64,000 nt of DNA, from NCBI GenBank assembly GCA_030407085.1, contig CM059584.1:7068001-7132000 (forward strand). The letters run 5' to 3'. Shown here in pieces: positions 3,685 through 63,168 of the stretch. The stretch's first letter is position 1. Each line of letters begins with the position of its first letter. The position numbers were made by a program, and so were the translations under genes. The notes beneath the pieces were generated by a model. The model was given only the letters and a program-made list of their open reading frames with translations, did no database searches and was not told the origin of the DNA. Source of the stretch: Trichopria drosophilae. Its lineage: Eukaryota; Arthropoda; Insecta; Hymenoptera; Diapriidae.

Positions 3685-3897
3685 TACCCAACGGGCACGA
3701 AGAACCCAAATGTTTCTAAAACGTTTTTAAAATGTTCCAGAAACGTTCCTAAAACGTTATATGTCTCCAACATGGATGAAACGTTTATAAAACGTTCCGT
3801 AAAAGTTATATGTCTGCAACTATAACGTTTTAGGAACGTTTCTGGAACATTCTAAAAACGTTTTAGAAACATTTGGGTTCTTCGTGCCCGTTGGGTA
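3685..3897. repeat. 213-bp near-perfect fold-back MITE
   Basis: The element starts TACCCAACGGGCACGAAGAA and ends with the complement. Arms of about 95 bp pair almost perfectly around a short centre near 3780-3800. The arms are built from repeated AACGTTTTA / AAAACGTT words, so the transcript would form one long hairpin. A 63-codon frame crossing it is an accident of the palindrome. Confidence 0.75.
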
Positions 3898-6118
3898 TTT
3901 GGTTGGTTAGAATAACTGTTATGAACCTGACGTAAAAAAGTTGAATAGACTTTGTTCTGTCGTTTATGAGAAATCGAATTTTATTTTTAAAGATGCATTG
4001 CTTTTCAAGGACGAAAATTGAAAAGTTTTTATTTATTTCTTCAAAAACTTGAACTGGACGACATGTGTGTTTTTAGCATTCTCTATATCATAGAATTTTT
4101 TAAAATCAATTTTTGAAAATTTCATTTTTATGACAATCGTACTGGAGTATAATCGATCCAGAATGTGAATTTCTTCAATATGGAATATAAATCGTACTTT
4201 ATCAGTTGCGAGAAGCACACTGCGCACGACGCACGTATTCAACAAGATGCGCCATCAAACGGTAAGAATTCGAAACTACCTACACCTTATTTTCTAAAGT
4301 CTCTTCGTTAGATTATAAAATGACTGTCTACTAATAGTTCAGTTAAAAATGATTTACTACGGCATGCAGATAGTTCCATCGGTTTCTAATCTTATAAATG
4401 TGATAACGTAGTAAGTTTTGCAAACAAAAACTTGAAATTCGAAAAATAAAAAGTTTTGGGACGTAATTTTACAAAAGCGTCTCTAAGAATGATTTCAATT
4501 TTTACCAGAATTTTCTTCATTTTTATTATAGAATCGAATAAATGAAAAAACTTCGACTTGTTATCAACCTTTTTTTACACATTTAGTAAAAATCAAAATT
4601 ATAAACTAAACTTTACCATATGAAGATCAGAAATATGGTTTTCTTTCATATTAAAGAATTTTCTCTAAAGTCGAGTATTTAGTCGTAATCGTAACCTGTA
4701 CTAAATTAAAGACGAAACATGCATTTTATTTTCATGTCTTAAATAACGTAAAAAGTGCCCAGACGACATTTCAATAACTTCATTGCACATTTTAGTTATA
4801 ATTGGAGAAATAATTGATTGAATTTCGAAACAGAGTATCTAAATTCGTTTTCAATGTACTACATTTCTTAATACAGTGAGCAATGAGCATACATCTTGAG
4901 TTGTTAAACAGAGGATAAACATCTACAATTAGAAAACTTAAAATAGAATGTAACATGCAATTTTCATTTGTGTTTAACAACAAATCTTGGAACTACTTGA
5001 TAAGTAATTGAAATAGACGCAATTCATTGTTTCAAAGGATAATGTCGGAAAATGTGGTTGAAAACGTTATTAGATAATAAGAATAGATTGCGACCAAACG
5101 TTTTTCCCGTTTTCATAATTGGCGGACGAACGAGATATGCAAATCTAATTGATAAGAATATTGGAAGAGTAAAATTTTGCAATATTTAGTGGGAAACATC
5201 CAAATTAAAGATTATACAAGTGGTAATAAACTAGAATTTTAAAAACATAAAAATGGACAATATACCTTATCATATTAATCAATTCAGACACCAAACCCTG
5301 TTGAAAAAGCTTTAGAATAATGTTTTTGTTCACGGATTTCTAGTTACTTACATTTTCATGAAGTTCATGAAAACGTTTGTAGTCATATTTATTAAACCTG
5401 ATTGGTGCATGTTCATTTAATTTAATTATTACACTGTACGACACTGATTTTGCCTTTGACAAGAGAAGTATTAATTCCAAACTATTTTTTCATGCTGAAA
5501 ATGATGGCGCTAGCAGAATTTTGCTATCACGTCACACTTTCGAAAAAAACGTGATTAAATTTTACCTCATTTTTTAACGACATTTAATCTCAAATTTTGC
5601 TGAAAATGTTGAATTTTGTAATTTCATAGGTTTATGAATAGTTCGTAAGATAAAATAATTTATTTAGTTTTAATGTTAGTTTGTTGACATATCTGGTAAC
5701 ATTCGGTGTTGTTGAAGATTTTCACGATTATATATATTCACTACAAGTAACAATACGTTCAATTTCATGTTTTATTACAAAATAAGATTCCTATTTTATT
5801 TATTTTTCAACATTCCTGAAAATGATCATAGAAAATCAGTTTTTCAAAATTCAAAATGGACGATCCAAAATGGAGAAGGAGACATTTGAAATATTCTGTT
5901 ATAGGTAGTAGTAGCTACTGGTGCTGTTTCATATGATTACATATTTCAATAAGTAATACAGACTGGGATGAAGCGTCACAAAATGAGATTCTATCTATTT
6001 TCAACAGATAAAATTTCTTTCAATCGTCTGATTATAAATTAATTTTTCTAAATATATAAACTTCTGTGCGAATAAGTTTTGCCGAAGCATAATAATTTCC
6101 TTCTTAACCGCTTGTTAA
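3898..6118. other. No gene seen
   Basis: AT-rich sequence with only short frames. No RNA gene, exon or clear repeat boundary. A 13-nt word (TATAAACTTCTGT) at 6055-6067 recurs directly at 6762-6774, on either side of the ribozyme element. Confidence 0.4.
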
Positions 6119-6763
6119 ATAATTAAAATAAATGAATTTATGTCTTGGTCGTGACGGTATATTTACGAGGGACAATCAAAGTAATAAATAATCCTTTTGG
6201 GTTTGCAATGGAACCACTATTTGTTTATCAAAATATGATTTTATATATATGTACATAAATAGGGGTAAAACGATATCTCGTTTACCATATTAGTCGATAT
6301 GTACTACAATAGCTTTAGTAGGTTTCTCCCCTACTAATGTTATTTAAAATCTCAACTTAGTAATTTTTATAACGAATTTTGTTTCTAATATGTCTAGGGC
6401 AGGGATCCTCGTTCGCCTTACTGATGAGTCCAAACGGGATCCTGGGACGAAACATACTTTTAACAAAAGTTCGTTAATCTTTAAGACATAGGCATTTGAT
6501 TACAATTGTCGTCGCTCGAGGGAAACAGAACCCACATACGATCGTTTCCTATAAATTAAATATATACAGTAAGTAAAATCGGGATTTCTGGTAGCGATGA
6601 TTTCACATCTTTCTGGCTATCTATTTATGTACATATATATAAAATCATATTTTGATAAACAAATAGTGGTTCCATCGCAAACCCAAAAGGATTATTTATT
6701 ACTTTAATTACCCCTCGTAAATATACCCTCACGACCAAGAAATTAATTCATTTATTTTAATTA
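6119..6763 (+). mobile_element. Inverted-repeat element carrying a hammerhead ribozyme
   Basis: Two arms of about 144 bp, at 6119-6262 and roughly 6621-6763, are inverted copies with only scattered mismatches. Both contain ATCCTTTTGGGTTTGC and ACTATTTGTTTATCAAAATA or the complement. The 358-bp centre has no protein frame but holds a complete hammerhead motif at 6389-6456, read on the + strand, followed by a small hairpin (ACTTTTAACAAAAGT, 6457-6471). No transposase or reverse transcriptase is present, so any mobility would depend on another element. TA or TTAA duplications are not obvious at the ends; a 13-nt direct repeat lies 51 bp outside the left arm and at the right arm edge. I do not recognise the family. 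Confidence 0.7.
6389..6456 (+). ncRNA. Hammerhead self-cleaving ribozyme, type III topology
   Basis: All core elements are present in order. Stem III 5' strand TATGT (6389-6393) pairs with ACATA (6452-6456). The cleavable GTC ends at 6394, so cut is predicted between 6394 and 6395. Stem I TAGGGC (6395-6400) pairs with GCCTTA (6415-6420). Core CTGATGA is 6421-6427, stem II GTCC (6428-6431) pairs with GGAC (6445-6448), and core GAAA is 6449-6452. Loop I (6401-6414) and loop II (6432-6444) each contain the self-complementary GGATCC, which could form a six-pair loop-loop contact flanked by G-U pairs; such contacts are known to speed natural hammerheads. Because stem III is the open stem, the topology is type III. 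Activity is inferred, not shown. Confidence 0.85.
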
Positions 6764-7664
6764 TAAACTTCTGTCTATTAATTAAGGTTTAGATCCACAA
6801 CGGGCAGCAAATCCGGTGACAAACGAGAACCATAAAATTAATTAATGAAACCGAACATGTCCAAATAAAAACCATTTCTTGATTTATTTAAAATAGTCAC
6901 GGTTCAATGTAACGGCAAAAAAAACATCTTGCAATTTTAATTCAATTCAATAAGTAATTTAAACAAAAAAGCTCAGTAGTTCACTAAATGACCAACGGTT
7001 TCCGATACAAAATGTCAAAAATTTCATCACTAATAACCGAGGTGTACGAATGATTTTTCGTCTCAGTAATTTTCCATACAATGTTTTCGATGTTTCTTGC
7101 CAGAATAAAGTTATTGACACATATTTATAAAATTAACAATATTTTCTATAAATATCAATGAATAGTATTTACCTTATTTATTGTAAACATAATAACATTA
7201 GGTTTAAAGAACCGATAAATTATCTGGCCGAATTAATAATATCTAGTATAATTTTCTAGAACAAAAGTAATAAAAACCAAAACGATGAGAAACTAGCCTA
7301 AAATCGAATTATTTTAATTTGGAAATGATTCATACGTAAAGTTATTTGGAAAACGTTGAAAAAACAAAATAAATGAAAAATTGGATGAAAAGTTGTATAC
7401 CCGAGAAAAAATGTCCGATCGAATTTGTATCTCGCGACAATTGGCTGTTACCAACAATTGACGTATCCTGTACATAACCCCAAAAAAACAATAAAACGCA
7501 TTTCCCATGCCCTAAAATACATTAAAACCCTGTTGACTTTGCAAATAACCAACTTGTTCCCAACATCCTATATCTGTTTTTTTAAACACATGCATAATGA
7601 ATATAACCTACGTCATGACCATTTTCAGCATCTATTATAAATGTCTAGTCTTTTAGTGAATCAA
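6764..7664. other. No gene seen
   Basis: AT-rich sequence with short overlapping frames on both strands near 7314-7640 that show no domain and no splice support. Confidence 0.4.
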
Positions 7665-12806: not shown

Positions 12807-12924
12807 ATTAGTAATTAAAAATAGAAAATTTAATAAAAACAACACTGTTTTGTAAATGTGCATCAGGGTAGAAAAAATACGATATATATTTATTGCCTTC
12901 CTACTAATAAGAATCAATATGCTT

Positions 12925-13376
12925 GTCTAGTATATGCCGATGCATCTCGGTACTTGAATACTAAACTTCAAAGATTATCTAACTGCGCGGTCCGTTTTGT
13001 TTTTTCACTTAAGCGTGATGCGAGTATAACAGTCTATAGGACCAAGTTAAATTGGATGTCAGTTACGATGCGGCGCACTTATTTCCTGGGCCTTTTAGGT
13101 TATAAGATTTTCACGATGAATAAACCAAGCTATCTGCGGGAACTTTTTGTTGAACTCGGGACTGATGTACGTAGGTCAGCTCGTCTTCAGGCCATCCAAT
13201 TTCATGTGCCGCACTGTCGCACTAATTTCAGACAGAAGTCTTTTATGATGTCCGTTATTAAATTATGGCGCATTCTACCAAATAATGTTAAACTCACTCT
13301 ATCATATGATCAATTTAAAGCTAAACTAGCTAATTTTCTTGCTATAAACAACATTGAGAATATTTGGGTCTAGTGT
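12925..13376 (+). pseudogene. 3' remnant of a non-LTR retrotransposon reverse transcriptase
   Basis: The 150-residue frame ending at 13373 reads like the C-terminal tail that follows the reverse transcriptase of CR1/Jockey-type elements. It has a YADASRYLNTKLQRLSNCAV segment, then LNWMSVTMRR, then KPSYLREL, HVPHCRTNFRQKSFMMS and IKLWRILPNNVK. These are the usual blocks after the polymerase domain. The catalytic domain and endonuclease are absent, so it is 5' truncated, the common fate of LINE insertions. It begins only about 120 bp beyond the fold-back element. Confidence 0.75.
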
Positions 13377-19070: not shown

Positions 19071-19125
<55 letters not shown>

Positions 19126-22100
19126 TAGAACGTCGAGCCGTGAACGTGTTTCACAGACATAAAAACCACGAAAAGCGATTTTTGCACGGAGAAACAATTG
19201 TGCAGTCAAATATAGAAAATATCGCGGAATTCCTCATATGTACGGCTTCGGAATTGACCATCATAAATTAGTGAAATATAAACATAGTCGGATTTTGTAG
19301 TACTTACCTCAGAATAAGTAACAACATAATTCATTTTTTACGCATTATTAACTGAATCAAATCGAAATTATAAGTAGATAAATATAATTAACTTACCAAA
19401 CATGATGAAAGAATGTTGAAACTTGAGACCACATTGAGCGCAACTGCTAGCGTTCGAATTATTCGTCGGTAACAGCGAATTATACGTCGAACACCTGTAA
19501 CAAAGTGGCAGCAATTCTCCTGGATCTCTATAAGGATACGCTCTAATAGCCAGAGTCCAGCTCTCGATTTGGGCTAATAAATTTTTAGGAATCTTCATTC
19601 CGCGTAATCTATCCAACAACTGCATCGCCAATTTATTAGCACCTAATAAACGCGCTTGTTTTACCAACGCATAAGTAATCGTTAACTTTGATACGCCATC
19701 TAGATGTATATTTTGGGTCTTCGTTAAAAGATATTTCGAAATGTTAAACAATGCTTCCGGCATTAACGATGTGAACGGCTCCTCCTAAAAATGTTAATGA
19801 TCACATAGTGGCTAAGTTTCTGAAGATTTTTACGAAAATTCACAATCTTCGACTTAATTGACTTACCAAATACTTATATACTTCATGATATGCGTAATAA
19901 ATATCTGCTTTATCATAATAGGATAAGAACAGTGCTTTAATTTCTTCAGTATTTTTTGGAAGATCGAGAGTCAGCTGAGACAATAACCAAAAGAAGTATG
20001 ATGCATCTCGAAACCTCTTTTCCGAAACTGCATTTTTGGCCAAAGTCATTAATACAACAATCGACTCTTCTGGTTGTCCAGCCATCTGGAAAGCTATGCG
20101 CAAAAATATTAAAAGCTTACATTTTTTCATAATTCACTACGACAGAATCTTTCGTACTCCCACCTTTTTGGGCTTCTGAAAAACGACCAGTTTCCGCCAA
20201 CCACCTAGCATAAGGCCCATAAACCCTAGGCCTTAATTTTGGATTTCGTTCCGCCAACTCGAACGCTTCGTGCCAAGCTTGCGCATCGACCAGAACATCA
20301 GCAACATCAGGATCATCACCTAAACGGCTAAATATTTCAGCAGCCCCATGCGTAGCTCCCAATTGCTTTAGCTTTTTAGCGATCATCGTTAGACTGTCTC
20401 TTTCCGCTTTGTCTAATTGTCGACCTACTTTAATCAACATATCGACCCAACCATGTTCCGAAATGATTTTGATCGCTCTGTGAACATCACCCGCCGAGAG
20501 GAACATTTCAGCCGCGGCTCGGGGCTCACCTAAACTTTTGGCCCATTCGGCTCGTCGCCGTAACAAAATTGTTCGATCCTGAGTATTTCCACTGGCTATA
20601 AATTCTTGGGCAATGTCGAACATCCTCAGATCTGAGTACATGTCTAGGGCCTGCTGTTGCATTCCAGCTTTTTGATACAATTTAGCTGCATCCCTGAGCC
20701 TTCCCATTGCCGCTGCAGCAGTTGCCATGCAAGCCTCTTTTCCCCATTCACCTGATTTTAGTTTTTGCTCAACTTCCGAAACGATTTCAACGTATCGTAA
20801 TTTTTTAATCCTTGCGAAGGCTGAATAAGCTATGCTAAACTCAAGGTGATCGAGTGCAGCGACACCTAAGGCGTACCAATCCGACTCCGCTACGCCCAAA
20901 CAAGCCAATGCGTAGGCTTTTTCAAACATGTTGCTTTCAAGATATTGGTACATTGTTGAAGAGAGTGGCATCTGTTCATAAGTAATTTACCTTTATTTCT
21001 TCTTGTTATATTTTATGATGAGAAATTAGGAATTCAACTGAAATTTCTTGGGGATTTATCATGAATAAACATTTAAATAATAGATCATTTTAGGATGACA
21101 AGTTTTTCTCCAAAATTCAAACTGGGGAAATTACAGATACAACAAAGAATATACTGCAGATCTTCCCTTATTTTAAAGGAAACAAAAGGAAAATTTGATT
21201 GATGGAACACGACGCCATATTCCTTAACAAGAACATTTAAAATAAGAGAAACTGCCTGAAACATTGAAAATCAATTTACCTCCATTGTACCAATCGACGA
21301 GCCTTGTAAATAATACATTTTTGATCCATTAACACCCACCAGACATCCAGAAAACTTTTGCCTGTACTCGGTGAAATTCGCTACTTTGATCGCAAGATAA
21401 TCGGATCCCGAAAAGCAGATCATATCCTCAAAAGCATTGTTGAACGAAACGCTTCGTACATCCGAATATTCCAGTAGCTTTTTGTCGTTTCGAATATCGA
21501 AAACCGACAATATTCCTCTATCGCTGACAACAGCTAACTTCTCTTTCATTAAACTGACATCAGCGACACAAACAGCGCCATCTACTCTGGCCAAGAGGGC
21601 TGGAAACGGATTGTCCAAATACAATTCGATAACCTGACCAGTTTTTAAACCAATTATAAGGCATTCCTGACTGGGCGGTCCTCCGACAACTCGCACGTAA
21701 GAAATCGGCCCGTCCAAAATCCATTCTCTTTCAATGACCCCACTGAAGGATAAACTTTGGACTCGTTTGTCAAGACATAGTATCATGTGGTTCATTGCGA
21801 CAAATAAATAGCTGCAGACTAGCGATTGAGTCAATTTTTCTCTGATCCGATAATGCATCAGATCGTTAGTTCCTGTAGGCTCGTATATGATCACGCGTTC
21901 CGGAAGCTGAACGGCGAGTCGATCTCTATAAACCGCTATTCTACAAACCTGGTATATTTTGTGTTATTAAAATACCGGATAATATATTCTTTGTAAAATT
22001 TTAAATAATTTGATAAAAACCTAACCTAACATCTGGAAATATACTGTGTTAATTATGATAACACATGCCGACAAAATTTGAGAAAATTGCGGAACCAAGA

Positions 22101-25100
22101 ACCAGAACATATTTTGACACGATGAATTCGAATCCGACCTTAGAATAGCCCCTATAGGTCAGGTTTTTGAGATATTTTAACCTAAATGTGCAAAAAGTAC
22201 GTTTTTTTGGCATATTTGAGGTGCACTAACTTCAAGACAGATTTTTTTTCAAAACGATCGTCGCGGTATCTCAAAGTACTGTTGTTGTCCTTCAAATTCG
22301 TTTTTAAACTTAGAAAAATCTTTATTGGTTGCTGAGATATCGTATGTTGAAGTTTCTGTGTTTAGCGAATTCGGCGATATTCAGAAACTGAGCAGAAGCG
22401 GATAAAGCTTCAAAAATAGAAAGAAATTATCCACAAAGAACTAAATTTCGAATGGCTCTTAACATGTTTGGTGTTGCTGAGTAGAAATTTGAAGTAAGAA
22501 TAACAAAATACAAAATGTCGGATTCAATATGGCTGACAGTTTTCGTAAACATCGACCTAATTCGTTTCAAACTTATTACTCGGGGGTTTTCGAGGTTGCT
22601 GAATACGAAACTCGAGTAAAAACTCTGGTGAAAATTTCCGTAAAATCATATGATAAATCATATGAGATTTTTATAATTTCTTTAATATCTTAGACGAATT
22701 CAGATGATTGTAATTCATTTTCTCATATTATTATTATTTCTTATCATTACATGAGAAATCACATGAAAAGTTTCCCGGATCGACTGATATTTTAAAAATC
22801 TCATATGATTTATCATATGATATTACGAACATTTTCGGTAGGGAAGTTTGAAGCGAATTAGGTCGATTTTTACAAAAGATGTCAGCCATATTGAGTCTGA
22901 CATTTTGTATTTTGTTATTTTGACTTCAAATTCCTACTCAGCAACACCGAATATCTTAAGAGCCATTCGAAATTTAGAACTTTGTGGATACATTCTTTCC
23001 ATTTTTGAAGCTTTATCTGATTCTGCTCAGTTTTTGAATATCGCCGAATTTGCCAAACTCGAAAACTTCAACAGTCGATATCTCAGCGACCAATAAAGAT
23101 TTTTCGAAGTTTAAAAACGGATTTTGAAGGGAAAAAACGACTTATGGACATTTGATCATATCCCATTTGATCGTAACCCATTTCATAGTCTTCCACTTGA
23201 TCGTCTGGACACTTGATCGTCTTGGAAACATGATCGTCTGGGACGCTTCATCGTCTAGACACTTCATCGTCTGGACACTTCATCGTCTGAAAACTTCATC
23301 GTCTGGGCACTTCATCGTCTGGACATTTCATCGTCTGGACACTTCATCGTTCACCTAGTTTCATCTTCCCAGACATCTATCCAGAACATTCCCAAGTTTT
23401 TTCGATATTCCTTGATCTTCCTTGATCTTTCTCGATCTTTCTCTATCTCTCTTTCGCTCTTCATCATCGACCTTCTTACTTGATCTTTCTTGGTCTTTGT
23501 CAATCATTCTCGATTTTTCTCGATCTCCAGACGATGAAGTGTCCAGACGATGAAGCGTCCAGACGATGAAGTGTCCAGACAATGAAGTATCCAGACGATG
23601 AAGTGTCCAGACGATGAAGTGTGCAGACAATGAAGTATCCAGACGATGAAGCGTCCAGACGATGAAGTGGAAGACTATGAAACGGGTTACGATCAAATGG
23701 AATACGATGAAATGTCCCACTACCGGAAAAAACAGTACTTTGGATACCGTGACGATCGTTTTGAAAAAAAAATCTGTCTTGAAATTACAGCACCTCAAAT
23801 GTACCCAAAAACCGTACTTTTTGCACTTTTAGGTTAGAATATCTAAAAAACCTGACGTATATGAGCTATTTTGAGGTCGGATTCGAATTCAGCGCGTCAA
23901 ATACCATTGGAAAAGTATATTCTGGTTCTTGGTTCTAAAATTTGTCGGTCTGTGTTATCAATGCACAAGGAAAGAAAGACTACATTTATTTAGTTATGAG
24001 AAAATTAGTTAATATCCATATTTTCATTACATTACTTAATATGAAAGAAAATTTGAATCTTCTCAGATGTTTATATGCTGAAAGGCAAAATTAAAACGCA
24101 GATTCTTTATAATTTTGAAATCATTTTAAAATATGTTGAATAGTGTATTTAAAATACTAAGTAATAGATACTTTTAGAATTTTGAGGTTAGATGGCTAAA
24201 TGCCCTATGTTCTAAACCTAATAGGGGTCCAAACTGGGCCTTCAGCCATGATGTTTCATAAAATGTATTTTCAGTATTTCTCCACGATTTCTGAACTGAT
24301 TTCGCTAAAATTTGAACAGCATTCGTTTAAAACTATTACTTTAACCCTTTGAGTCACGGTAATAACCCACGTTACCTCTATTTCTTTGAATTTTAATTAT
24401 TTACGTTCAAGTTAACGTCTTCCGATCACTCTTTTTGCTATTTTCTGTTACCTTATTACTTAAAGAACATATCCACATGACTAAAAATACATAATAGTTT
24501 ATTATTTACTTTATATAAATAAACAAACACAAAAAAATCATGTTTTTTTCGAAAGAATTCATTTTTGATGCTATTTTGAAAGATAATGACTTGAAGTTAC
24601 GGGTATATAGGTTTTTGGGGTCGCTGATTACGAACCCTGTGTCAGATTTACAAAATTCAAAATGGCGGATTCAATATGGCGGTCAGAAACATGTAAAACA
24701 TCGCCAATTTTTATGAAAATGCGTATTAGGGGGATTTCGGGGTCGCTGATTGCGAATCCGATGTCAGCTTTACGAAATTTAAAATGACCGATCCAATATG
24801 GCTGATTCAAGATGGCGGTGATCGAGATGTTCAGCAACCTTGAAAACCCCCGAGTAGCAAATTTTGTCCCAATCGAATTATATTTTAAATTTTTGTCCCC
24901 CATATTGGATCCGCCATCTTGAATTTAGAAAAACGAACCTCGGATTCGTAATCAGCTACTTTGAAAGCCCCCGAGTAGCAATTTTTTTTCCCAATCGAAT
25001 TATATTTTAAATTTTTGTCCGCCATATTGGATCCGCCATCTTGAATTTCGAAAAACTAACCTCGGATTCGTAATTAGCGACCTCAAAAATCCCCGAGTAA

Positions 25101-28100
25101 CAAATTTCAGCTAAATTCGATAAAAGGAAAAATGTCTGACTCAAAGGGTTAACTTTTATAGACCCAATATTTGGAACAACATAAACATGATTTATTTAAT
25201 TTTATCTACTTAGATTTTACTCTTTCGCTGTTTGTCAAAAAACTTTTGACTAAATACAACAGCTTTAGACTGTTATTGTAAATAATCGCACTGTAAATAT
25301 TATTCCGCGAAGCTAACAAATATAACCCATTAATGCCTGAAATGACAATTTTTATACTTCATTATCAATCAAATATTTCATATCAAAATCGAAGTTGAAA
25401 ACAATTGAAAGGTACATATGCTATTGTTTTCGAGGTCGCTCTTCAAGATTCCGAGGTCAAAATTGAGTTTCAGCCATCAGGAATTCCAATATGGCGCCGA
25501 ACTTTTAAAAAAATTCCAAAAAATTGGGAATTATTTATTCCTATCAATTTTTTTCGAGCTATTAGAATATTGGGATTCTATTGAAACTCTGAGCAAAGGT
25601 GAACAAAATACTACAATTTTAAGGAAAAATTTTCTCTTTATACCCTACATCATTCTAACGACCTCAAAATGGCGTCAACAATGAAAATGTATTTGAGAAA
25701 TTTCTGGACGCTCTAACTCAAAAACTACGAACTTTAAAAAAAAAATTCCCAGAATGAAAAGTTCTTAAAATTCATCAAGCGATATAGTGGAATTTTTTCA
25801 AAATTTTTTGATGACATTTTAAGACATTTTTTTTCAACATTTTTTTCAAAATTGTAATTTATTTACAAAAAATTCTGAAAAAAATTTAGTGTATTCTCTG
25901 ATGAATTCTAAGAGTTATTTGTTCTTTGGAATTTTTTTCCAAAAGTTGATAGTTTTCGAGGAAATGAATTTCAAATATTATAGTTTAGGATTTTTTCCCC
26001 CCAAAAACTATTAACTTTTGGAAAAAATTGCAAAGAACAAAAAACTCGTAGAATTCATAAGTGAATACACCAAATTTTTTTCAGAATTTTTCATAAATAA
26101 ATTATGATTTTGAAAAAAAATTTTGAAAAAAAATTTCTCAAAATGTCATCACAAAAATCTGAAAAAATTCCACTATATTTCTCGATTAATTCTAAGAACT
26201 TTTTATTCTTAGCATTTTTTATAACAGCATGTAGTTTTTGAGTTGGAACGTTCAGAAATTTTTCAAAGAAATTTTCATTGTTGACGCCATTTTGAGGTCG
26301 TTACAATGATGTGGGGTATAAAAGTAAAATTTTTCCTTAAAATTGAAGTATTTTGTTCACCTTTGTTCAGAGTTTCAATAGTATCCCAATATTCTAATAG
26401 CTCGAAAAAAATTGATAGGAATAAATAATTCCCAATTTTTTGGAATTTTTTTAAAAGTTCGGCGCCATATTGGAATTCCTGATGGCTGAAACTCAATTTC
26501 GAACTCGGAATCTTGAAGAGCGACCTCGAAAACAATAGGATATGTACCTTTCAATTGTTTTCAACTTCGATTTTGATATGAAATATTTGATTGATAATGA
26601 AGTATAAAAAATGCCATTTCAGGCGTTAATGGGTTAACAAAGAAATTTGATATAATTTACTTGATTTTGAATAAATTCAACATTTTTATAACTATTTTAA
26701 TTATTTATAATCTTCAAGAATATTTTAGCCATTATAAATTAAAAAAATTCATAAATAACTAAATCTTTTTTAATTATAATTTATATTACAGGTAACAAAA
26801 CATGAAATTTTTCATCAAACTATGAAATAACATGCAGTAAACTATTTTAATAATTAATTCATAACTTACTATATCTTTGCACTTGATCCTGACTTTTTGA
26901 TTTGTACTCAAATCCTGGATCAACACGTCGGTCATATTTTCCCGATAAGCGTATCGATCTCTGTATAACCCATGGACGGTATTTGGCGATAGTTCTAAAT
27001 AATTAATAGTTCCATCTTGACAACCGACTGCCTAAAAAAAATGAAATAAACGATTGTATTAGTAGGGGAAAATTGACTAATTCGGACTGTGGAAAAGCTA
27101 ACCATATCGCTTATTTCAATTTTCAACACTCATGATTGTTGTCATGTTTATAGTATCTGCGAAATTCGTTTAAAATCTTGCAGACAGACCAATGGGTATT
27201 AAAAATTAACTTCATGATGAAATATATTTTGTTAATTTTTTACTACTAACAAGTTGCAAATTATATACCACAAAAAGTCTAAAGTTACTTACAACATGCG
27301 ATGAGTCAGGATGTACAGCACAACTCCATGTCCATGATGAAAATTGGTGACCAACCGTAGCTAGCTGAATTCCGTCATGTGACATCAATAAGCATTGTCT
27401 ATTACTACCAGAAACGAGGATATACTGCCCTTTTGGAAAATAAGTGATTTTCAGTGGAATAAAATTGATCATTCGCTCTTTGCCGACAGGTTTGCCATTC
27501 ATCGTATAAAATGACAAAGTACCACCCCATTCACCGATACACAGGATATCGTTAGAATCTTCCCTAAAATGCGAAGGCGGTACAGTATGAGAGAATAAAA
27601 TTTCTAAATGTACAAACTTCCAAAAAAGTACAATCTGATATTAAATTTTAATTCTTCATTAAAGTTCGAAAGAATTATTAAGAACGATTTATATATAAAC
27701 CTTATCCAATAACATCAAAGTGCAAAAATCTACAAAATGTTACAAAATATAAAATATTATTACAAGTTTATAATTACACTAATAATAAACAAATTAAAAA
27801 ATAACAATTTGATAGTCCGAAAAATAGAACGATTTATGTTTGCGATATAAAATCATGTTTCTATCAAAGAAATGGAACAAATTAGTCAGTATAAAACGAC
27901 AAATTTTAGACATCTGATTAAAATGAAGTCATAAATATTTATAAAAATAACTATACTAGCACAATAATATTTATTCACATAATTAAAATAAATACCTTAA
28001 AGGACTCCATGCCAAACTCCAAATTGGTGATTCGCCTGGTCTATCAATACGTAATTTTTCATCACCGTTCTAAAAATTTATTTTATCGTATTCTTTATTC

Positions 28101-31100
28101 GTACATTTTATCGTATTCTTTATTCGTATATTTTATCGTATTCTTTATTCTTATATTTTATCGTATGATATTCATTAAACATATTCTAAATGCACAGATC
28201 TAGGAACTAAATAAATCCCAAAATTCACAAACAAAAACTGAAATACCTTATTTCTTATTGACACGTAACCAGCTGCCATTCCCAGCGCCATGTATTGGCC
28301 ATCGTTTGACCATGCGCAACAGTTTACTCTCCCACCTGATTTGTGCCGTTGCACAGCTTTTTGTTCCATCGACCATAATGCAATATCTGTCATTGCACAA
28401 CTCAAAAGTTGTCGAGAAACTGGATTAAACTGTAACGACTGAACAGCTTCATTGTGCCTGACAAATTCAAATGAATTTTGAAATTATCTTTTTATAAATT
28501 ATTTTTACACGATACACTACAAAATTTTTACTCACGAATATTTCAAAATTCCTTCGAGTTTATTTGTCCAGATTATAACTGTTTTATCCGCACTCCCAGA
28601 AGCAAACTTTTTGCCATCGTGAGCATAACATACGCAATAAACGACATCCTTATGCCCTTTAAAAATATTATTGATTACAATTGTTTTATAAATAAATTGT
28701 TTGCCTTATAACTAATAGGAATTCAAATCATTGGGTAAAAGGTTCAGTTGTGAACTTGGTTCGGTTGTGAATACCCCTGTGTACATTTTCATTGAAAAGA
28801 AAGGAATCGAATTCGACAAACATCGTGTGTGTGTTATCGCTACATGTAGCTTTTGCTTTTTGCTGCGAACAAATTGACTTTCTGACATGTATATGTCGCC
28901 GTACATCTATTTTTCAGTATTTTCAAAAGCCCTACAAATCAAATTTAATCAAAGGAAAAGATAAATGCAACGCATAGTTACCCAGTAAACGAAAACGAAT
29001 AGAAAGTTAAAAATACGAATTGAAATAAATTCAAGTGAATTAAAATGAAATAAAACGCATGAAAATGATTAATTGAATCAACTTTTTAATTCATTTTAAT
29101 TCACTTGAGTTCATTTCAATTCGTATTTTTGACTTTCTATTCGTTTTCGTTTACTCGTGTGAATATTGTAGCGGCATTAAAACTTCATAAAAAAAATGTT
29201 CTTTTGCACATTGTGGTGGCTGTTGCTATTAAATCACTAAATGTAATAAATTGACTCTATACCGAGCAAACGAAAACGAATAGAAAGTTAAAAATACGAA
29301 TTGAAATGAATTCAAGTAATTAAAATGAATTAAAACGCATGAAAATGATTAATTGAATCCACTTTTTAATTCATTTTAATTTACTTGAATTCATTTCAAT
29401 TCGTATTTTTAACTTTCTATTCGTTTTCGTTTACTGGGTAACTATGCATTGCATTTATCTTTTCCTTTGATTAAATTTGATTTGTAGAGCTTTTGAAAAT
29501 ACTGAAAAATAGATTTATGGCGACGTATACATTTCAGAAAGTCAATTTGTTCGCATGAAAAAGCAAAAGCAACTTTTTGCTTTCATATTCGCACAAAAGC
29601 TACATGTAGCGATAACTCACACTTGAAGTTTTAATGCGGCTACAATATTCAGTTATGAACACCCCAATTGCTTCGTGAACACCCTTGTTTTTTTGAGAAA
29701 TCATAAAATATAGTTGTATGTATTATATAATTCATAATCGATCCTTTGTTTGCCAAGTTTTCTCCGATCGGCTTTCGTTTCTTTCACTTTTCTCCATGCA
29801 ATTGTAGTGTGCTCAAATGGGTAAGAGCTACTGGCAATGTAAACGAAGAGGATGAAGAATAATAAGTATCAATATAGTACTATATTTTGTCGTTAAAAGT
29901 TTTTTAAATCAATATAATGAATTATAATTTCTATATAGTAGGACCTCTCTTATTCTAATTAGTAAAGTTTTTCAAGATGGCGCTGACCTCTCTTATTCTA
30001 ATTTTTGCCTTACCACCACTTACTTTGCTTGCGAGCTTGTGATTCGTGGACAATATTTTTCGTTGTCTTTTCGTGTGATAGTGGGAGAAGACTTGTGGGG
30101 GAACAATTAGAATAAGAGAGGCTGGACAATTAGAATAAGAAAGCCAAGTAGAATAAGAGAGGTTCGAATAAGAGAGGTCCTACTATATGGACATATCTCC
30201 AGAACTTTTAAACTTTAACGTGACATCCATTATGATACCTTAAAAATCATACAAATAAATATGTAACATCATATTTTGGCAGATTATAGTGCCTCTCATG
30301 TGTCCCTAATGAGTGTTCGACATTAGAATCACAAACAAATTAAACCCTGAATTCGCAAGTGTCGAATTTGACAATTTCTTGTGTGCGACAATTATGTTTT
30401 TTTTTTTATCATTCACAATAATTCTATTTTAACAAAGCTTTGTGTGCTTTTATGCTCACAGTAGAAATAGTTGAGATTATTTGGAAGTGAAAAATCATGA
30501 CAACAAGTATGTGTCTTTCGTCAAAATGATAGGAGGAACACTCAAAGTTGCGAGATAGCTTTTTTTAAAATTGCACTTTTTAGTAGTTCAGCTCTGTAAC
30601 TTTTGTAATGACATATTAATATTTGACTATTAATAATTTGTTATTCTGTGAATAATAAGGAGTGGTTTAAGCATTAGCAAAAACGTGTGCCGCATGTACA
30701 GTGATCCTCCCCATATTTTAACCATTCGAGTCAAGGAAGATGGCGGCTTCTTCCCTTATTTTACCGCTTCCCCTTATCCCCACCACTGGCAGTATGAGAG
30801 AATAAAAACAGAGAGAGGAGAAATAGTGACGTCCTTCTTCACCTGTACAGTAGGACCTCTCTTATTCTAATTAGTAAAGTTTTTCAAGATGGCGCCGACC
30901 TCTCTTATTCTAATTTTCCCCTTACCCCCACTTACTTTGCTCACGAGCTTGTGATTCGTGGACAATATTTTTCGTTGACTTTTCGTGTGATAGTGGGAGA
31001 AGACTTGTGGGGGAACGATTAGAATAAGAGAGGCTGGACAATTAGAATAAGAAAGGTAATTAGAATAAGAGAGGTTCGAATAAGAGAGGTCCTACTGTAT

Positions 31101-38878: not shown

Positions 38879-39481
38879 TTAACCGCCAAGTTGCTTATAA
38901 AGAATCGGTACATAGTCGTCGTATTCGGCTTGGAACATGTTTCCGGCAATCGGGTCTCCTAATTTGTACTTTTCAGCAAACTTTTTAATTGAAAATTTTG
39001 CTCGATCTGCATCGCTACGGTTTGTCAATCTTGGTTCATCGAAAGTCAATTTTCCGGGTTGTTTGTACGTTAGGAAGACGTATCGATGCAAGCCAGTTTT
39101 CTCAGGTGGACCAGCACCGATATAATCGGACAATACTTCTCCTTTAGAGACGTCATTTCCAGGAATGTTTGTGATCAGCCAATGGTGCCATTCGCGAAAT
39201 TGAGGTTTCGCACGACTAGGAGCATCAGGATCTTGAAAAGAATTTGTATTACAAATGTATTAATTAAAAATACTATAGAAATACTTACCAGTCATACAGA
39301 GAGTATAAAAGCTGGAAGCGTCAGCATCCCATGTAACTTTTGGAGCATCTTTTACTTGCGTTGGAGTTAAAACCTTTCCGATTTCAACATCTCCGTGGGG
39401 ATAAGTTACTTTGGAAACAGCTTTGGGGACAGTGTTGATAACGTCTGGAATAACTTCGTGAGTTTTCAATGCATCAGCCAT
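38879..39481 (-). CDS. Phosphatidylethanolamine-binding protein (PEBP)
   Basis: Two exons, 39289-39481 and 38879-39231, joined with phase 1 across a 57-bp intron, give 181 aa, the usual PEBP length. PEBPs are small, mostly cytosolic proteins that bind phospholipid head groups and can modulate kinases. Both signature motifs are present: DPDAPSR at residues 65-71 (the split Asp restored by the splice) and GLHRYVFL at 111-118, with REWHHWL between. The C-terminus is [14 protein letters not shown]. The start ATG at 39481 ([10 protein letters not shown]) is where most family members begin, but the frame stays open upstream to an acceptor at 39532, so a longer form is likely. Confidence 0.94.
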
Positions 39482-43417: not shown

Positions 43418-44906
43418 ACGTCCGTGAAGTTAGCCCGCCATTGTAAAGAAATGGATTAAAAATAGCGCGAATCGTTTGCGATTGATTGCGATTACCGATT
43501 TTTCGTTTGCGACTTTGTCGTTTAAAAGTTATTTGTGAAAAACGCAATGGCCGGCCAACTTCACGTTCGCATTTGTGAAAACGCGTTTACTCAGCAACCA
43601 ATCGAACAATTTCAACCAAATTAGGCTCAATCGTTTGTAATTCGTTTGCGAATTATGAATTAAAGGTGCTTTTTCCGATAAATTGTAAAATAAAAAAAAA
43701 ATAAATTATCCATTATATACAAAATCCTTTAAAAGGATTGCGATTTTTTTGCAATCGGTCTCAAACGCTTGCGATTCGTTTGCGAATTGACATAATTTGC
43801 GAATTTTTCGAATATAATCAGAAATGATGCGAAAATAAACGAATTATCGAAAGTTACTAGATCCAGCCCGCCTCCATATACAAAATCCTTTAAAAGGTTT
43901 GCTATTTTTTTGCAATCTGTCTGAAACGTTTGCGATTCGTTTGCGAATTGAGATAATATGCGAATTTTCCGAATATAATAAAAAATAATGTAAAAATAAA
44001 CGAATTATCGAAAGTTACTAGATCCATTTCCACTAGTAACTTTCGATAATTCGTATATTTTCGCGTTATTTATGATTATATTCGGAAAATACCGAATATT
44101 ATATATAATATGTAGGATAATTTATTTTTTTTATTTTACAATTTATCGGAAAAAGCACCTTTAATTCATAATTCGCAAACGAATCGCAAACGATTGAGCC
44201 TAATTTGGTTGAAACTGATCGATTGGTTGCTGAGTAAACGCGTTTTCAAAAATGCGAACGTGAAGTTGGCCGGCCATTTCGGTTTTCGTAAATAACTTTT
44301 AAACGACCAAGTCGCAAACGAAAAATCGGTAATTCGTTTATTTTCGCATTATTTCTGATTATATTCGGAAAATTCGCAAACGAATCGCAAACGTTTGAGA
44401 TCGGTTGCAAAAAAATCGCAAACCTTTTAAAGGATTTTGTATATGCAGGTAGGTAGGATCTAGTAACTTTCGATAATTCGTTTATTTTCGCATTATTTTT
44501 TATTATATTCGGGAAATTCGCATATTTTCTCTATTCGCAAACGAATCACAAACGTTTGAAACCGATTGCAAAAAAATCGCTATCCTTTTAAAAGATTTTG
44601 TATATAAAGGATACCTATATAGGATAATTTATTTTTTTTATTTTACAATTTATAGGAAAACGCAACTTTAATTCATAATTCGCAAACGAATCGCAAAGGA
44701 TTGAGCCCAATTTGGTTGAAATTGATCGATTGGTTGCTGAGTAAACGCGTTTTCAAAAATGCGAACGTGAAGTTGGCCGGCCATTTCACGCAAATAACTT
44801 TTAAATGACTCGCAAACGAAAAATCGGTAATCGCAATCAATCGCAAACGATTCGCGCTATTTTTTATCCATTTCGTTACAATGTCGGGCTAACTTCACGG
44901 AGGTAT
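43418..44906. mobile_element. 1.5-kb fold-back element rich in TTCGTTTGCGATT
   Basis: The left end CGTCCGTGAAGTTAGCCCGCC and right end GGGCTAACTTCACGGA pair, and the inverted identity continues for some 250 bp. Between lie many copies of TTTGCGATTCG / CGAATCGCAAACG and of TCGAAAGTTACTAGATCC in both orientations, giving a multi-hairpin structure. No coding frame is present. Confidence 0.7.
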
Positions 44907-45175: not shown

Positions 45176-45841
45176 ACAGTATTCCTTCCCTTATTCTAAT
45201 TTTTTCTCTTCTCCTATTCTAATATTTCCCCTCACGCGTTCTCCCCACTGACGTGTGTTGCCAATAAACATTTTGTCGAAGGTATGTCTAAAAGATCTCT
45301 TTTGGACATATCTTTTAAGGTACTTTACAAAAGATATCTAAAAGATATCTTTTTGAAAGACGTCTTGAACCAAGACATTTAAAAGACATCTGTTTTGAAG
45401 ACATCTGAAGGATATCTATTCGAAAGATGTCTTGCAAAAAGACATCTAAAAGACGTCTTTCGCAAAGATATCTTCGATAAAGATATCTACAAGATGTCTT
45501 TACTTAACGCCGACAAATGCGCATGCGCGCAAATTTCTTCCCGCGTTCCCCGTTTTGCGATCGCCGCTATTTTTGCAGTGTTTTCATACATCGCGTCCCG
45601 CAGTGATTCGTAAATTTGTTTTATTTATTTATGTGTACATTTGCGATTAAAGACATTTGTCAAAGCACTATTTGATGTGTGGATTTTCTAAATACAAATA
45701 ACGGCGCATGCGCAACAAAAGAAAAAGAGACAAAAGTGAGACTATAAATCTAAGTAGTGGGGGACGGGGGAAAATTAGAATAAGGGAAGAAGGTCGCCAT
45801 CTTGCCTGACTGGACAAATTAGAATAAGGGAAGGACTACTG
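45176..45841. mobile_element. pogo-like MITE, family C, large copy
   Basis: Ends CAGTATTCCTTCCCTTATTC and GAATAAGGGAAGGACTACTG, TA at 45174-45175 and 45842-45843. CGCCATCTT (AAGATGGCG on the minus strand) is at 45795-45803. It contains a 230-bp block of AAGACATCTTT-type words. Confidence 0.75.
45275..45505. repeat. AAGATATCT / AAGACATCT palindromic word cluster
   Basis: At least a dozen copies of AAGAYRTCTTT variants, each itself a near palindrome, arranged in both orientations. No fixed period. The 72-codon frame across it is a by-product. Confidence 0.65.

Positions 45842-63084: not shown

Positions 63085-63168
<84 letters not shown>
63085..63168. repeat. (GA)42 microsatellite
   Basis: Eighty-four bases of pure GA dinucleotide. 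The Arg-Glu or Leu-Ser frames across it are artefacts. Confidence 0.95.

Follow-up and report, generated by a model that had tools for sequence, protein, structure and literature searches.

A complete type III hammerhead motif in a foldback element, possibly retroposed, of a hymenopteran genome

A structurally complete type III hammerhead ribozyme, probably active to judge from its sequence, lies at 6389-6456 on the + strand of the 64-kb window (the whole stretch of DNA that was analysed, positions 1-64000), within the spacer that separates the two 144-nt arms of a foldback. The best explanation overall appears to be that of a retroposed foldback in a hymenopteran genome, the own RNA of which would be cut by the hammerhead, a reading that we give about an even chance of being right.

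The motif combines an exact core with three stems. Stem III, the open end of the motif, comprises 5 bp (TATGT, 6389-6393, with ACATA, 6452-6456), and is followed by C6394, i.e. nucleotide 17, directly 3' of which (6394/6395) cleavage is predicted. Stem I (TAGGGC, 6395-6400, with GCCTTA, 6415-6420) has 6 bp, including one G-U pair, and encloses a 14-nt loop 1 (6401-6414); stem II (GTCC, 6428-6431, with GGAC, 6445-6448) has 4 bp and encloses a 13-nt loop 2 (6432-6444), with GGGATCCT being present in both loops. The core boxes are CTGATGA (6421-6427), which is unchanged compared with the consensus, and GAA (6449-6451), the subsequent A6452 already being part of stem III. All of these elements are on the + strand. 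The features by which type III hammerheads are recognized, i.e. a CUGANGA and GAA core, an NUH triplet and three helices (5, 6 and 4 bp for stems III, I and II, respectively), with stem III open, are all present.

In a motif scan of both strands, which required the core, stems I, II and III of at least 4, 3 and 4 bp, respectively, and set loop lengths, 6389-6456 was the sole fit in the 64-kb window, and the claim of a complete type III hammerhead without core changes, made in the preliminary description, is thus borne out. No second hammerhead was found by this rule on either strand of the window, and none of 100 first-order Markov windows gave a fit. In the covariance search that the same description had proposed as a check, RF00008, the Rfam type III model, matches the motif at 36.6 bits, with E-values of 4.5e-6 for a 901-nt segment and 3.2e-4 for the entire window, but this score is under the gathering score of 48.5 bits, which is a database cut-off and not a biological feature, so that a default Rfam search lists no match. 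The long loops are the likely cause of the sub-threshold score. A permissive Rfam search gave 18 further matches, sub-threshold or weak, nine of which have lower E-values than the hammerhead, all nine being matches of microRNA models to hairpins of the window, and the RF00008 E-value alone is therefore no proof; the exact core and its three stems weigh more heavily as evidence.

The region around stem III offers further pairings. A possible extended stem III on the + strand (6371-6383 with 6462-6475), a 13-bp helix with one bulge, is not clearly over background, since helices of equal stability were obtained in 48 of 2000 shuffles and in 415 of 2959 flank pairs from the window. An 8-nt stretch (6286-6293) could also pair with 6385-6392, across stem III.

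Loops 1 and 2 have GGGAUCCU in common, with GGATCC present in each, within the shared GGGATCCT. The mutual complementarity of the loops that the preliminary description had pointed out is confirmed, with six contiguous Watson-Crick pairs and two G-U pairs being available, and the two loops could make a tertiary contact via the six Watson-Crick pairs. On shuffling both loops, at least six contiguous pairs were found in 2.2% of the shuffles; the loop complementarity, by itself, is modest evidence. The stems I and II at 6389-6456 (6 and 4 bp) agree with the 2-bp stem I/II length difference that, in PMC3088659, is tied to pseudoknotted type III hammerheads.

For comparison, hammerheads sharing the stem II boxes of 6389-6456 were collected from the matches listed in viral and prokaryote contigs. 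The 239 sequences so assembled, consisting of 238 loci from these listed matches together with a slice of the present window, contained 257 motifs; 152 had no type III fit by the motif-scan rule and were dropped, leaving 105 fits, or 69 after removal of 36 duplicate loop pairs. The longest contiguous loop-loop match, among the matches listed, was 0-3 in 68 distinct type III fits and 6 in that at 6389-6456, the set being biased towards a single stem II sequence, with loops shortened by greedy stem extension. Taken as a whole, the set of listed matches has loop-loop matches no longer than those in shuffled loops, so that 6389-6456 is an outlier, but one from which loop pairing gains no general support. 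Ribozyme patterns with GGATCC loops, or with the same stem I/II junction, were absent from viral contigs; with a viral collection, such absence carries little weight.

The predicted energetics count against ready formation of the hammerhead. The minimum-energy fold of a 76-nt region (-19.9 kcal/mol) has the loops paired together, with the core lost and the hammerhead absent; this fold is no better than those of shuffles (z -0.9). The hammerhead fold without the loop contact is calculated at -9.8 kcal/mol, and the GGGAUCCU duplex by itself at -11.6 kcal/mol. As modelled, these figures do not settle the balance between the hammerhead and the alternative fold.

The foldback that holds the ribozyme has a left arm at 6119-6262 (+ strand) and a right arm at 6621-6764 (- strand), each of 144 nt, that are 95% complementary, differing at 7 of 144 positions; between them is a 358-nt spacer (6263-6620). 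The arms constitute terminal inverted repeats with abrupt ends. The 13-nt direct repeat TATAAACTTCTGT was found at just two places in the 64-kb window, one at either end of the element, with the left copy (6055-6067) being 51 nt outside the left arm and the right copy (6762-6774) overlapping the right arm over the final 3 nt of the latter. The intervening 51-nt left tail (6068-6118) is without a long match elsewhere in the window. The element so delimited would span 6068-6761 (694 bp), boundaries that we infer. It is non-coding, with the longest stop-to-stop frame overlapping it comprising 51 codons. Further copies of the element, or of its arms, were not found in the 64-kb window; the arm pattern was likewise absent from viral contigs and prokaryotic genome contigs, a result that thus has little weight.

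The 13-nt direct repeat is likely a target-site duplication. Random flank pairs of the window shared at least 13 nt in 187 of 19,696 cases (in 104 of 19,696 near the arm end), making a chance origin unlikely; at 11 further inverted-repeat pairs, some of them overlapping, the longest repeat in the flanks was 10 nt. A long target-site duplication in combination with one asymmetric end is more in keeping with target-primed reverse transcription than with cut-and-paste transposition. Duplications that are 15 bp in length and LINE-like are described as flanking Nematostella hammerhead repeats in PMC4918200.

None of the seven arm differences keeps a pair in the + strand RNA, and the long hairpin is therefore without sign of selection; four A-C mismatches (6172, 6173, 6177 and 6207) become G-U pairs in the - strand RNA, too few to read. 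Since the arms are only approximately 5% apart, and the copy may be young, the intact ribozyme core is also not evidence of selection. For the + strand of 6050-6800 the predicted fold is far more stable than the folds of 20 shuffles (z -19), a point in favour of a DNA copy of an HDV-like agent; however, the strong fold stems from the arms, which are 95% paired without a gap, and the rod of HDV-like agents is unlike such gapless pairing.

The genes in the window enable a placement of the host. Exons of IFT122 are present at 19368-27640 on the - strand; with the joined ORF pieces as the query, and with scoring of the 7998 candidates sharing most words, the top-scoring named relative is from Nasonia vitripennis (identity of 71%, with 82% of the query covered). 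Next come those from Leptopilina, Phymastichus and Venturia (68-69%), with an ant at 77% over a shorter stretch (70%), and all the named matches above a termite (47%) are hymenopteran, some other matches being without a name. For a phosphatidylethanolamine-binding protein (PEBP) exon (38879-39259, - strand), the only Pfam match from four ORFs of the window, relatives from bees and ants come first, a beetle being at rank 7. Placement in the Hymenoptera is well supported by the sequences of these two genes; that of a parasitoid wasp is likely, and closeness to the chalcids is a guess. The preliminary description's phrase 'insect repeat' therefore stands with respect to the insect host, given the hymenopteran IFT122 relatives, but with respect to the repeat only in the sense of an inverted repeat, no second copy being present in the window.

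The window is rich in foldbacks. There are 94 inverted-repeat pairs of at least 40 nt in 1-64000, the longest 25 of the 94 including those at 25323-26636, 22294-23124, 28839-29580 and 43491-44785. A 178-codon open frame on the + strand (12837-13373), without a Pfam match, is reminiscent of the terminal part of a non-LTR reverse transcriptase. At 23194-23350 and 23526-23669 there are 16-nt tandem arrays with one common unit in opposite orientations, and at 45331-45501 there is a nested tandem array of AAGACATCT-like words; perfect GA microsatellites occur at 19073-19122 (25 units) and 63085-63168 (42 units). A TwoAYGGAY match on the + strand (3715-3867; 45 bits compared with a gathering score of 43), which overlaps a match to a microRNA model, was observed in the permissive Rfam search and is absent from the default search; it is probably a chance match on a hairpin. 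No tRNA genes were found in the 64-kb window.

The element probably entered the genome by reverse transcription, with formation of the 13-nt target-site duplication, employing enzymes lent by another element. Once the + strand is transcribed, the GGGAUCCU sequences in both loops would kiss via 6 to 8 bp and align stems I and II, and the RNA would then cleave itself between 6394 and 6395. The predicted products are a 327-nt 5' fragment with a 2',3'-cyclic phosphate end and a 367-nt 3' fragment with a 5'-OH end, which may remain joined via the arms. The most likely role of such cleavage would be processing of the element's own RNA, in a retrozyme-like manner, although a lone ribozyme cannot release the unit-length circle that retrozymes need. 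The present copy is a single unit and may no longer move.

A possible but doubtful reading, which is compatible with the retroposed origin as far as the element's history is concerned, is that the copy is a dead relic of a once-processed element, now neither transcribed nor cutting, with its intact core reflecting recent age. With arms that differ at 7 of 144 positions, many copies of such an age would be expected to keep intact cores, and the predicted ground state is misfolded. By contrast, every core base and stem is intact and the loops are complementary, and a blocked predicted conformation is also described for plant retrozymes in PMC4918200.

We regard as unlikely the proposal that the element is a MITE-like DNA transposon of the foldback kind, mobilized by a transposase, with the hammerhead as a passenger that does not contribute to mobility and the 13-nt repeat arising by chance or from an older duplication. 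Foldbacks abound in the window, as the number of inverted-repeat pairs shows, the arm ends are abrupt, and a common stretch of at least 13 nt is seen in approximately 1% of random flank pairs. However, the left 13-nt copy does not adjoin its arm, from which it is separated by the 51-nt tail, and a length of 13 nt exceeds the target-site duplications known for TIR superfamilies. By reading, there is no convincing short duplication directly beside both arms, although one of 2-3 nt (e.g. TA, TAA) may be present.

That the locus is a DNA copy of an infectious, viroid-like circular RNA (an HDV-like agent), which entered the genome through a chance event of reverse transcription, is very improbable, because, although type III hammerheads occur in termite and toad HDV-like RNAs and related motifs occur in isolation in termite and dipteran genomes (PMC7936874), the other strand lacks a hammerhead by the motif scan, there is no ORF of the size of the delta antigen, and the GCCR/YGGC loop pair and extended helix I described in that source are both absent.

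The preliminary description had contrasted type I hammerheads in animals with type III hammerheads in plants; this holds in so far as two reviews (PMC7761336, PMC6155905) give type I as predominant among animal hammerheads, with type III predominating among plants and the circular RNAs of plants. It does not hold as a strict division, because termite and dipteran genomes contain type III hammerheads according to PMC7936874, as do the HDV-like RNAs of termite and toad, and PMC7761336 mentions insects among the holders of type III hammerheads; type III is thus not new to insects. Searches with an extended architecture found none in some hymenopterans, and the same study leaves open whether infectious circular RNAs arose from the insect type III motifs or instead donated these motifs to insects (PMC7936874). 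The hammerhead at 6389-6456 is like the motifs of that study in its type III topology, its location in an insect genome, its isolation and its potential Watson-Crick contact between loops 1 and 2. By contrast, in the HDV-like RNA hammerheads described there, stem I has 5 bp with an internal loop and an extra hairpin, stem II has 6 bp and the loop contact is GCCR/YGGC, whereas 6389-6456 has 6- and 4-bp stems, open 14- and 13-nt loops and a potential GGATCC/GGATCC contact. The potential loop-loop base pairing is like that of the pseudoknotted type III hammerheads in PMC3088659, with the genetic context being different.

The foldback also shares features with several classes of retroelement. Like the plant LTR retrozymes, it has a ribozyme with a 6-bp stem I and a 4-bp stem II (PMC7936874), is non-coding and is some 700 bp in length. 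The metazoan non-LTR retrozymes, as described in PMC7229834, are similarly of low GC content and non-coding, with long target-site duplications where these are present; however, they are type I and arranged as short tandem repeats, whereas the present hammerhead is type III and in a single copy in a foldback. Plant LTR retrozymes have two hammerheads in direct LTRs and a 4-bp duplication, whereas the present element has one ribozyme, inverted repeats and a 13-nt repeat, together with low GC content and larger loops. Penelope-like elements have inverted terminal arrangements, resembling that observed here. Those that carry hammerheads are also alike in having a ribozyme in a retroelement with repeats, but their motifs are minimal type I ones in tandem (PMC7761336) and the present element is without a reverse transcriptase. 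Given that its ribozyme is placed neither in tandem nor in LTRs, the element is not classed as a plant or metazoan retrozyme, though it may still work alike.

The combination of this hammerhead architecture with a foldback setting was not found in the open-licence literature searched, and, within that limited search, the proposed GGATCC loop contact and the foldback setting look new. A complete type III motif in an element with likely boundaries provides a concrete hymenopteran sequence with which to trace copies, insertion sites and RNA ends. A more speculative proposal, to which we attach rather little credence, is that the element represents a new kind of animal retrozyme, i.e. a wasp family of hairpin-shaped non-autonomous retroelements that would employ LINE or Penelope-type enzymes for their mobility and process their RNA with a type III hammerhead having a palindromic GGATCC kissing lock. 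If so, animals would have type III retrozymes of their own, and it might be from this cellular source that insect HDV-like RNAs obtained their hammerheads.
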